Source of the DNA: Promethearchaeota archaeon Loki_b32
GTDB lineage: Archaea > Asgardarchaeota > Lokiarchaeia > Sigyniarchaeales > SOKP01
Length of the DNA: 64,000 bases
Assembly (NCBI GenBank): GCA_005223125.1
Contig: NJBH01000007.1
Span: 62,001 to 126,000 of the forward strand
Reading direction: 5' to 3'
Shown: piece by piece, positions 911 to 40,968 of the stretch
Layout: each line of letters opens with the position of its first letter
Numbering within the stretch: position 1 is the stretch's first letter
Position numbers and translations under genes: made by a program
Notes under the pieces: model-generated
Databases searched by the model: none
What the model was told of the DNA's origin: nothing
Seen by the model: the letters and a program-made list of their open reading frames with translations, nothing else

Positions 911-1444
911 TTACTTCTTCTTTTTAATAAATGCGAGATCACCGAGAGAAGTTCCGCTAGATTTTTTCATGTATTTATTATTAGAAACATCAGCTTCAAT
1001 CTCAGTAACTTTTTTTATGATTTTTATTTTATACACATCTTCTATTTTTTTTGCCAATTTAATTGTAGGTTCTACTTTTCCCGTTTCAATTCTTCTAAGT
1101 AAGGAAGGTTTTTCATTTAACTTCTGAGCAAATTGATCTTGATTAAGGCCTAGTATATTCCTCGCATTTCTTATTTTTTTAGCATAATCTGGAATTATTT
1201 CTAGATCATCGATGCGAGGTTTTTTTAGAGCTTGGCGTTTTGGACGAATTGCTCTATCACGGGAGAATGAGCTTTTAATATATGTACTGGTAGAGTGTTT
1301 TTGAATTTTTACACCATGTTGGGCACAATTATGACAAACTGTAATTTTCGCTCCTTCTAATAGAACTCTTTGCCCCTTACCCCAAATTATACTCCCACAT
1401 ACAGGACATTCTTTATCAATTTCATCGTATTGTGGTTTTGGCAT
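911..1444 (-). CDS. MBF1-type transcription co-regulator (zinc ribbon + HTH)
   Basis: This is archaeal multiprotein bridging factor 1. An N-terminal zinc ribbon (C13, C16, C37, C40) is followed by a basic linker and a Cro/C1-type helix-turn-helix at about residues 85-140 (LGLNQDQFAQKL). In eukaryotes MBF1 bridges TBP and activators; archaeal forms associate with the ribosome and translation. At 177 residues the length is normal. It is divergent from PAN across 243 bp that should hold both promoters. Confidence 0.9.
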   Translation of the reverse strand: MPKPQYDEIDKECPVCGSIIWGKGQRVLLEGAKITVCHNCAQHGVKIQKHSTSTYIKSSFSRDRAIRPKRQALKKPRIDDLEIIPDYAKKIRNARNILGLNQDQFAQKLNEKPSLLRRIETGKVEPTIKLAKKIEDVYKIKIIKKVTEIEADVSNNKYMKKSSGTSLGDLAFIKKKK

Positions 1445-1687
1445 AAAATCATCTCAAATCAGATTTGTTGAAGAAAAGCTTTATATGCATAGAATTTGAT
1501 TAAAAACTCTTATAATTTACGGTTAATTAGGATTATATTTTATAATCTATAAATTTTTTAAAAATTGACATTTTTAAGTAATAGTACAGAAGTAACCTTA
1601 AATTTAAATGATTAAAAGTTTATTAATAAATTAAAGTAATTTCTTAAAAATGTACATTAAAGTGAGAAAAGAAGGGGTACACTTTTT

Positions 1688-27857: not shown

Positions 27858-27959
27858 TCCCTCTTACCATCTAAAATCTACCATCACTACTTTACCGCTC
27901 CGGACATGCACAATTCCCTCATGCCCTAAGCCTGAACCTTATGGTTCCTCTTTCAACAC

Positions 27960-28235
27960 CACACACTCGTGCTATTGAGAGTGGCGGGCTGAATAGGTCG
28001 CCCGAAAGCTCCCTACGTACACCCCCACCTCACTAACCCCGTCTTATACGGGTGCACTCGTCTCGCATACTCAGTTCGCGTCACCGCGCCCTGATCTCGT
28101 TAACTCGCAAATAATCCATTTAGATTATGATGTATTCTTATGATTAGCTTCTGACGATCACAGGTGTGTCTTACTAACCAACACCAACCTAAATACACCA
28201 CTCACTCATTAACACTCGCTATACGAGATTGGCTG
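27960..28235 (-). other. Enlarged 3' domain of 23S (expansion segment ES39 region)
   Basis: After the conserved hairpin around AAAGCATCTAAGC, about 310 nt remain to the 3' end, roughly twice the bacterial length. This position is where helices 98-101 and expansion segment ES39 lie. Enlarged ES39 in Asgard LSU rRNA is established in the literature; the exact limits here are my estimate. Confidence 0.55.
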
Positions 28236-28417
28236 ACTATTTTCGGGTCCGACTTCGTGCTTAGATGCTTTCAGCACTTATCCGTTGGCGCGTGGCTGCC
28301 CGGCAATACCTTGTCAGATAACCGGTACACTAGAGGCGCCGGCAAAATGTTCCTCTCGTACTGATTTTCCCTTACCCTCAGTCAACCTACAAACCCAGTA
28401 GATAGAATCCGACCTGT

Positions 28418-28576
<159 letters not shown>

Positions 28577-28606
28577 TTAATGGGCGTACAGCCCCACCCT
28601 TGGGAG

Positions 28607-28645
28607 TTATGCGCCACAGCTCCTCTGCGGAACTGCGTATGTGCG
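28607..28645 (-). other. Insertion of ~31 nt in 23S helix 91, possible mini-intron
   Basis: Between GGGAG and CTCCC of helix 91 the loop should be about 8 nt but is 39 nt. The extra sequence folds: CGC pairs with GCG, and CGCAGUUCC with GGAGCUGUG. Five-base bulges (ACAUA and CAUAA) lie on opposite strands, so the shape is a relaxed BHB. It may instead be a retained helix extension. Confidence 0.5.
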
Positions 28646-29236
28646 CTCCCAGGATAGGAAGAGCCGACATCGAGGAAGCAAGCCACGAGGTCGATAGGAA
28701 CTCTTACTCGTGACAACTCTGTTACCCCCGGGGTAATTTTTCTATCACCTTAACCAGCCACACGAGCTCAGTTAAGGATCGCTAGACCAGGCGTTAGCCT
28801 CAGGATTCCTTGGTGATCAGAATCCAGTCAGACCAGCTTTTGCTCTTAAACTCTTCAGCGGATTCCTGACCCGCCTGAGCTGATCATTGGTTACTCTAGA
28901 TATTGTTTCTAGAGTGAGCCGCCCCAGCCAAACTGCCCACCTGCGGGTGTTCGATGCGATTTGCATCGTTAGTGATACCAGAGGGGAAAGCCGGTGTTCC
29001 AATGATGCTCCGCCGTGACCGAAATCGCGGCATCTACGCTCCCGACTACACTCTGTATCCAATCCAGGACCACAACAACAGGCTGCAGTAAAACTCCACG
29101 GGGTCTTCTCGTCCCACTGGGTTTCTCCGGACCGTTCGCCGGAGTGTAATTTCAATCGTCAGAAGGCTGGGACAATGGGGAGAACGTTGGACCATTCATG
29201 CACGTCTGAACTTACCAGACAAGGCATTTGGCTACC

Positions 29237-29266
29237 TTACTCTCGAGAGGTCGAGACGACGTATCG
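29237..29266 (-). other. 30-nt insertion in 23S domain IV, likely mini-intron
   Basis: Archaeal 23S reads CTCTCTTAA|GGTAGCC near E. coli position 1952; here 30 nt interrupt it. Exon ACUCUC pairs with GAGAGU at the insertion's 3' end, then a 3-nt bulge AAG, then exon pairing CUAU with GUAG. An internal hairpin GUCG-UCU-CGAC fills the middle. Removing the 30 nt gives the consensus exactly. The exact junction is ambiguous by two A residues. Confidence 0.65.
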
Positions 29267-31555
29267 TTAAGAGAGTTATAGTTACTCCCGGCGTTTAGCA
29301 GGACTTACTCGGGTTGTAACCCGGATTTATCAGACTGCCACTGGCCAGGTTTCAGCCACTGTAAACAAGTTTTCACTCTATCAGTGACCTATGTTTTTAT
29401 TAAACAGTCGTCCCCCCCTAGTTATTGCAACTTGTGAGCCCCTTCACACTGCCGAAGCTGCGTGAAGAAGTTCGCAAGCAAGCCTTCTCCCAAAGTTACG
29501 GCTCTAATTTGTCGATTTCCCTAGCCTCCTTTACACGAATACGCCTTAGGCTACTCACCTAGGGGCACCTGTGTCGGTTCTGGGTACGATCACGGCATTT
29601 CTTACTTTTGCCTTTTTAATAGGTCCTGGGCTCGGCGGAACCTTCCACAATTGGATGGCTATTCATGGTTTAAGCTGGGTCTAAGTTTTACACTATTCAC
29701 CAGCTTTATGCATTTAAATAGGGAGATATTCGACGGCCCTATTCCACCTACCCTGAACCGTCAGCATAAAGTCGTGCGTCACCGCTATTCGTAGTGCCGT
29801 GGTACAGGAATATAAACCTGTTTCCCTTTCGCGCATACCAGTTAAGGGTACGCTTAGGATCGACTAACTCTTCGCTGACGACGCATTGCAAAGAAACCCT
29901 TGCCCTTTCGGCGGATGGGATTCTAACCCATCTATGCTTTTACTATTACCAGGATGTTCACTCCGGGCAGATCCACAGGAACTCACGCACCTGCTTCTAC
30001 TCTACCCGGACGCTCCCCTACCGGATCACGGGGTTCTTCCGCCCGTGCCCTTGGGTCTCGGTGGCAGATTTAAGCCCCGTCCATTTTCGGGGCTATATTT
30101 CTCGGCAAATGAGTTGTTACACACTCGTTAGGGAATGGCTACTTCTATACCTATCCTTTTGCTGTTTTAGAAATATAACGCCCTTCTGTTTAACACTTAA
30201 CCTGCACTTAGGGACCTTAACCCAAGTCTAGGTTGTTCCCTTCTCGGCGATGGACTTTACGCCCACCAACCCGTTTCCCAGAGTCTGCAGTGCCAGCAGT
30301 TTCGGAGTTTAAGAGCGGGGAGAGGAATTTCTTCCCCATACCACGCAATTAGTGCTCTACGCCACTGGCTGCCTCGTCTGAGACTTGGCTGATACCAACT
30401 TCGGGGAGAACCAGCTATCACCGATCTAGATTAGCCTTTTGCTCCTATTCCCAGTTCATCCAAGCGAATTGCACGTCAGCACTGGTGCAGACCTCCATCG
30501 CCCTTTCGAACGACTTCATCTTGACCAGGAATAGATCGACCGGCTTCGGGTATTATAGCAGAGACTTTTGGCCCTTTGAGACCATTCTCCTGGCCTAATT
30601 CCTTAGAAGGATTAGCTAAACGTTGTTAGAATGGCATAACCACTCGTTAACGAGTAGGTCTTCCTAATGTGATAATTAGGTTGCAAGAATATCGGTTTCC
30701 CTATGCCTACGCGCCGCAAGACGCTTAAGCTTGCCACTACTATAAACTCCCTGGCCAATGATTCCAGACTGATGATGCGACCCTAGTCCTCTGTATTCTG
30801 ATATTCTGTCACCAGAACTCATTCATGCAGAATCTGTCCTTTCAGGCCGCATCCTTAATAAGCTATTTGGTTTCAAGCACTTTTCACAGCCCTTCCGGGT
30901 TACTTTTCATCTTTTGTTCACACTACTACTACGCTATCGGTCTTGGGACATATTTAGATTTGCCAGCGTGTATCTGGCACATTCGTACGAGAAAACCATC
31001 CCGCACTACTCAGGGACTCTTGCAGCAGCCATCTAGATTACGATTACGCGGCTGTCACGCTCTATGGCTCAGCATTCCAGAGGTATTCATCTTCTCTAGA
31101 GAGGCCGTACAAGGCCCATACACCACATTTCCCATAGGTTTCCCTTGGGATTCGGTTTGATCTGTTCCGCTTTCGCTCGCCGTTACTTACGGAATCACTA
31201 TTGTTTTCTTTTCCTCCTGGTACTAAAATGTTTTACTTCCCAGGGTTCCCCTTCCCTGACGGGAATCTTGCGGATTATTAAGCCGCAAGCGGATGTCCTA
31301 TTCGAGAATCTCGGGGTCAGCGTCTTCATGCGACTAACCCGAGCTTATCGCAGCTTGTCACGCTCTTCATCGGTGCCCAAGCCAAGATATTCACCAAATA
31401 GCGGAGGCGTATTGGCGTTTAGTTGAGGAAAGATTCAGATTGCTTGCATAAGGGTTGCATATTCGGAGACGGTAAATGAATTAAGCATTTTTTTAAGCTT
31501 GCTCAATATCCTTAATGACGATTTGAGACGATAATTAGAAGACATAATTTAAAAA

Positions 31556-40627: not shown

Positions 40628-40823
40628 AAATATCCATCAGTTATGTTCTTTTTTTATATCTAATTTACATTAGAAGTTAAACTTATTGGTTGCATTCAGA
40701 ATTCTTTTATATAAGAAGAATACATGCTAATTAAAAATCGAAAAAGATTAAATTGTTAGTTTATAATGATATATATATAATTAGTATATATTGCATAGGA
40801 ATCAACCCTATAAATACTTACAT

Positions 40824-40968
40824 AGCGGGGTGGGCTAGCCTGGTTTATGCCGCAGGGCTCATAAGTTATGGAACTTGTACACCTCTTATTGAGAAACCCT
40901 GAGATCGTTCGTTCAAAAGCTAGTAATTACTGATCTCCAGTAAGCTGAGAGTCGAACCCCCGCTACCA
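40824..40968 (+). tRNA. Initiator tRNA-Met (CAT) with two introns
   Basis: The acceptor AGCGGGG pairs with CCCCGCT; the discriminator is A and CCA is encoded. The anticodon stem CAGGG/CCCTG has the three G:C pairs typical of initiators; the anticodon is CAT at 40860-40862. Intron 1 (40864-40895, 32 nt) is at 37/38: exon CUCA pairs with intron UGAG, with bulges UAA and AAA. Intron 2 (40918-40951, 34 nt) is in the T loop at 59/60: exon UUCA pairs with UGAG, bulges AAA and AGU, flanked by T stem GTTCG/CGAAC. Both are canonical BHB. It opens the aIF2-beta region. Confidence 0.93.

Follow-up and report, generated by a model that had tools for sequence, protein, structure and literature searches.

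The interrupted gene at positions 40824-40968 (forward strand) of the window is very probably a functional initiator tRNA gene, and probably the only one its genome possesses, with two introns that EndA would cut out before RtcB joins the exons. By the window we mean the entire 64,000-nucleotide stretch analyzed, C48:62001-126000 of a Lokiarchaeial genome (G000) that comprises 4.13 Mb in 71 contigs, at 95.5% completeness and 4.6% contamination. The three exons and two introns, as read from the sequence, are laid out in Table 1 along with the other loci considered.

Table 1. Positions of the initiator tRNA gene, its parts, and the loci related to it. Numbers that carry no contig or locus label are positions in the window.
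Feature	Location	Strand	Remarks
Probable TATA element TATATATATAAT	40770-40781	+	AT-rich block upstream of the gene, about -54 to -43
Exon 1: tRNA positions 1-37; anticodon CAU at 40860-40862	40824-40863	+	40 nt identical in all genes that the 5'-half pattern detected in the window's family
Intron 1 (37/38), 32 nt	40864-40895	+	missing in L067 and L086; G118, G119, G121 and G125 have introns of 32 nt at this site
Exon 2: tRNA positions 38-59 (3' anticodon strand, V loop, 5' T strand, T loop to A59)	40896-40917	+	
Intron 2 (59/60), 34 nt	40918-40951	+	covariation, 19 distinct homologues
Exon 3: U60, 3' T strand CGAAC, 3' acceptor strand CCCCGCU, A73, encoded CCA	40952-40968	+	pairs with the 5' T and 5' acceptor strands
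Catalytic EndA subunit (L181)	G000 C18:184510		catalytic Y, H and K conserved
Second EndA subunit (L182)	G000 C2:78506		catalytic His of M. jannaschii EndA replaced by Ser
RtcB ligase	G000 C48:37255		same contig as the initiator gene
Initiator genes with D-arm introns	L209 (G126), L204, L205, L211, L212		
Initiator tRNA gene of G174, 193 nt	L210, about 1413-1605	-	read from sequence

The gene has the marks of an initiator: besides the CAU anticodon, there are three G-C pairs adjoining the anticodon loop (GGG CUCAUAA CCC) and the pair A1-U72. When the two introns are removed in silico, what is left matches letter for letter the intronless 79-nt gene of a relative in the same genus (L067 of G123), and an identical 79-nt intronless gene is carried by a member of the same family (L086 of G146). 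By sequence, the exons make up one standard archaeal initiator tRNA, intact once both introns are excised. The earlier note had named the gene as an initiator tRNA with introns of 32 and 34 nt in the anticodon and T loops, and both the identity and the lengths are borne out. A TATA-like block is kept upstream of all 14 initiator genes examined within the genus, the intronless one included, and the block upstream of this gene probably serves as the TATA element of its promoter.

The genome was searched for initiator genes with sequence patterns and by inspection of individual loci. Three patterns found no second initiator gene in the 95.5%-complete assembly: the pattern for the 5' half and that for the V and T arms each match 40824-40968 alone, and the other near-matches to the anticodon arm (19/19) lack a tRNA context. 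Conventional tools pass over the locus. ARAGORN called no tRNA at 40824-40968, nor was the gene reported by the Rfam tRNA model at E values up to 10, and since both overlook it, they are unusable for counting tRNAs in this genome. Because the only detectable initiator gene is doubly interrupted, the start of translation probably requires RNA splicing, as the earlier note supposed. All translation initiation in this organism appears to hinge on the removal of two introns, one of which blocks the T loop.

One might object that what we see is a pseudogene, or a copy in decay, and that the few percent of sequence lacking from the assembly include an intact initiator gene. Within the genus, 4 of 18 relatives yielded no initiator gene by any pattern used, so genes of this sort can be missed in assembly or in the search. 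However, in each relative of the genus where a gene was detected there is a single one, and exons identical to those of an intronless orthologue, together with a T-loop intron whose structure covaries, are the opposite of decay. We consider a decayed copy improbable, and continue with the locus as a functional gene.

Among other RNA genes of this genome, those for Pro(GGG), Asn(GUU) and Thr(GGU) tRNAs seem by eye to bear inserts in the T arm (the group of L026, L027, L019 and L018), and L018 is a gene resembling that of elongator tRNA-Met with further inserts. The window also contains, on the reverse strand (27955-31418), an archaeal 23S rRNA gene that exceeds the Rfam model by about 480 nt; 16S rRNA has no match elsewhere in the window.

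The T-loop intron lies within what is, by its sequence, a canonical and covarying bulge-helix-bulge (BHB) motif. The central helix pairs exon UUCA (40912-40915) with intron UGAG (40946-40949), and the T stem serves as the exon helix, just as the earlier note had drawn it. The bulges are of 3 nt each (AA/A and AG/U, the slash marking the exon-intron border), and the intron helix GCU/AGC leads to the hairpin UACUG-AUCUC-CAGUA. The 17 pairs of this structure were counted over an alignment of 19 distinct homologues. Overall, 95% of the cells are paired (100% in the T stem and in the central helix, 93% in the intron helix, and 87% in the hairpin). There are 31 two-sided changes, and nine pairs are altered on both sides; because the structure was drawn from the same sequences, it is the two-sided changes that provide the stronger evidence. 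The covariation score is 0.338, as against 0.159 +/- 0.015 for shuffled alignments, none of 500 shuffles reaching the observed value, and it falls to 0.033-0.103 when the structure is shifted by 1-3 columns. The four pairs of the central helix are standard in 19/19 sequences, where variation is one-sided only (U-A to U-G).

In its fold the insert prolongs the T arm, and perhaps it is never spliced but is retained in an enlarged arm. But with the insert retained, neither the conserved loop UUCAAAU nor the contact that it makes with the D loop would survive, the constancy of the central helix is what splicing demands, and the insert is wholly missing in some relatives, all of which makes a retained insert highly improbable. 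Still less credible is a circularly permuted gene broken at 59/60, for although Thermofilum pendens offers a precedent in its own initiator tRNA, at both of these positions (PMC3218864), the present gene runs from 5' half to 3' half and closes with the encoded CCA, so that gene order refutes permutation and the insert at 59/60 is a cis intron.

Within the T-loop introns of the window's family, the core of the hairpin (UG-NNNUC-CA) is nearly invariant, even though it lies outside the splice motif. Perhaps the core binds a protein, or perhaps it reflects common origin. An origin of the hairpin from a C/D box was considered and rejected, as CUGA is not conserved. As for spread of the intron to other tRNAs, which has been reported for Thermoproteales, a covariance model run on the genome gave the gene itself as the sole good match among the 150 scored of 6051 first-look candidates; two weak matches (E values of 0.08 and 6.4) proved to be non-tRNA sequence.

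The earlier note had given both introns canonical central helices and 3-nt bulges. The word canonical holds for the T-loop motif but only partly for the other. In the anticodon loop, the exon helix is CAGGG/CCCUG, all four pairs of the central helix form (CUCA at 40858-40861 with UGAG at 40890-40893), and the bulges are nominally of 3 nt (UA/A and AA/A), but the helix on the intron side is weak. The isolated region, folded without constraint, reaches -11.9 kcal/mol, versus -8.5 kcal/mol when constrained to the BHB, and in the unconstrained fold UAAG pairs with CUUA across the 5' bulge. Constrained folds of the 32-nt introns of G118, G119, G121 and G125 likewise have no helix directly beside the bulge. 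The folding thus suggests a motif closer to the relaxed than to the strict form of the BHB, and it is better called relaxed.

What might cut such motifs? The genome carries two genes of the EndA family (PF01974), as do most Asgard genomes. The first (L181) finds its best PDB matches in chains of Aeropyrum pernix EndA (3p1z, E = 2e-35, and 3ajv, E = 6e-34), while the best match of the second (L182) is EndA of M. jannaschii. With two paralogous subunit genes, one having the Y-H-K triad and one not, we infer an endonuclease of the (alpha-beta)2 type rather than epsilon2, which answers the earlier note's call to identify the type. The segment FFGSPLGISKPRLEYF of the catalytic subunit aligns with YYGQPLDVEKPRGADF of A. 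pernix (alignment to 3p1z), placing K60-P-R in the loop described as specific to Crenarchaea, where Lys is followed by Pro or Val and then by Arg or Lys (K44-P45-R46 in A. pernix; PMC12397907). K44 is the key residue of that loop, which allows cleavage of non-standard introns (PMC6379350, PMC12397907). Both sources describe the loop as crenarchaeal and leave Asgard archaea unmentioned. Yet K-P-R or K-P-K occurs in 31/31 aligned Asgard catalytic subunits, a set made up of L181 and the 30 best-scoring Asgard matches (L151-L180). The EndA heterotetramer predicted for this genome would, judging from its loop, accept a broad range of substrates. In particular, the Lys-Pro-Arg loop would explain the tolerance of introns beyond the anticodon loop as well as of the relaxed motif within it.

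The pathway that we propose would begin with transcription from the conserved upstream TATA element. The (alpha-beta)2 EndA would then cut each 3-nt bulge between its second and third nucleotides, and RtcB would ligate the exons. Archaeal EndA recognizes the local BHB and not the body of the mature tRNA, and so splicing could take place before the tRNA folds. Indeed, the T-loop intron presumably must be removed before RNase P and the enzymes of T-loop modification encounter the L-shaped fold, because the intron prevents the T loop from forming and hence the contact between T loop and D loop. Splicing would therefore probably run ahead of end processing and T-loop modification.

To place the gene among its relatives, the 5'-half pattern, which assumes that the 5' half is uninterrupted, was run on 228 Asgard genomes and found initiator genes in 74. 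Of these genes, 14 are intronless, while a single intron is found at 37/38 in 21 (including three that the script could not parse and that were assigned by eye), at 59/60 in 13, and in the V loop in one. Two introns are present at 37/38 and 59/60 in 16 genes, in the V loop and at 59/60 in five, and at 37/38 and in the V loop in four; all three together occur in 0/74, these counts being uncorrected for relatedness. The window's own family is represented by 47 genes with an uninterrupted 5' half. The 59/60 intron is found in 27 of them, 15 of which combine it with an intron at 37/38 and five with one in the V loop. Doubly interrupted initiator genes are therefore common in this lineage, not unusual, contrary to the earlier note's view of such genes outside Thermoproteales. 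Across the family, exon identity averages 97% (positions 1-43 and 49-72), with five distinct versions, and mean intron identity is 55% at 37/38 and 63% at 59/60. Exons nearly fixed amid the turnover of introns are what splicing predicts, and so the anatomy of the gene goes beyond chance. The family amounts to a natural experiment, in which a nearly invariant tRNA carries 0, 1 or 2 introns at three sites. It permits direct tests of the way an essential gene gains and loses introns, and of the way a single endonuclease loop sets the range of substrates, and this in the phylum closest to eukaryotes.

Initiator genes with introns in the D arm, missed by the 5'-half pattern, were found in G126 (of the same genus), G088, G077, G181 and G183. 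Since several such cases are accounted for by an intron in the D arm or by an altered acceptor stem, failure to match the pattern was not scored as absence of the gene. By the same token, where Asgard genomes seem to have no initiator tRNA, its gene may have been passed over by tools not designed for more than one intron.

The most heavily interrupted gene belongs to G174. A protein of this genome matches the tubulin-like protein of PDB entry 7evb, which we take to be OdinTubulin, across all 425 residues, and so the genome is that of Odinarchaeum or a very close strain. If the product is assumed to be a tRNA-shaped molecule of 78 nt, then at least five introns (28, 14, 17, 26 and 30 nt, 115 nt in total) are needed, two of them in the D loop, followed by one each in the anticodon loop, the V loop, and the 3' acceptor strand. 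By eye, two fit a BHB: that of the acceptor strand (CCCC (GC/A) CAGAAU ... AUUCUG GGGG (AA/U)) and that of the V loop (CCCG (AG/G) CAAG ... CUUG CGGG (AA/A)). The Odinarchaeum initiator gene thus appears to hold five introns. Putting these observations together, we lean towards the view that the initiator gene is a hot spot for introns throughout the Asgards, with at least five sites (D loop, 37/38, V loop, 59/60, and 3' acceptor strand) and up to five introns in a gene, that the so-called Crenarchaea-specific loop is general in Asgard catalytic subunits, and that the last common ancestor of the Asgards already possessed a permissive endonuclease.

The gene described here is genuine and clear-cut, and other archaea have already furnished examples of its kind. 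Closest to home, 92-95% of the tRNA genes of Atabeyarchaeia and Freyarchaeia, of the same phylum but of different Asgard classes, have introns, often at non-canonical sites, and more than half have several, according to the part of a 2024 report drawn on here (PMC11291895), in which analysis of the initiator tRNA or of the endonuclease was not encountered. These intron-rich tRNAs also speak against calling such genes unusual outside Thermoproteales. In T. pendens, the initiator tRNA is permuted: its ends lie at 59/60, and it has an intron at 37/38 (PMC3218864); there the halves are reversed, whereas here their order is the normal one and a 34-nt intron separates them. The likeness to Thermoproteales such as Pyrobaculum and Thermofilum extends to tRNAs that each hold several BHB introns, both at 37/38 and at non-canonical sites, and to an (alpha-beta)2 endonuclease with the Crenarchaea-specific loop (PMC4033280, PMC3218864, PMC6379350), the counterpart of which is predicted here from its genes. 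Unlike them, the present organism belongs to a different phylum and has an AT-rich genome. And while the tRNA genes of Thermoproteales have at most three introns apiece (PMC4033280), an Asgard initiator gene, that of Odinarchaeum (L210), appears to reach five.
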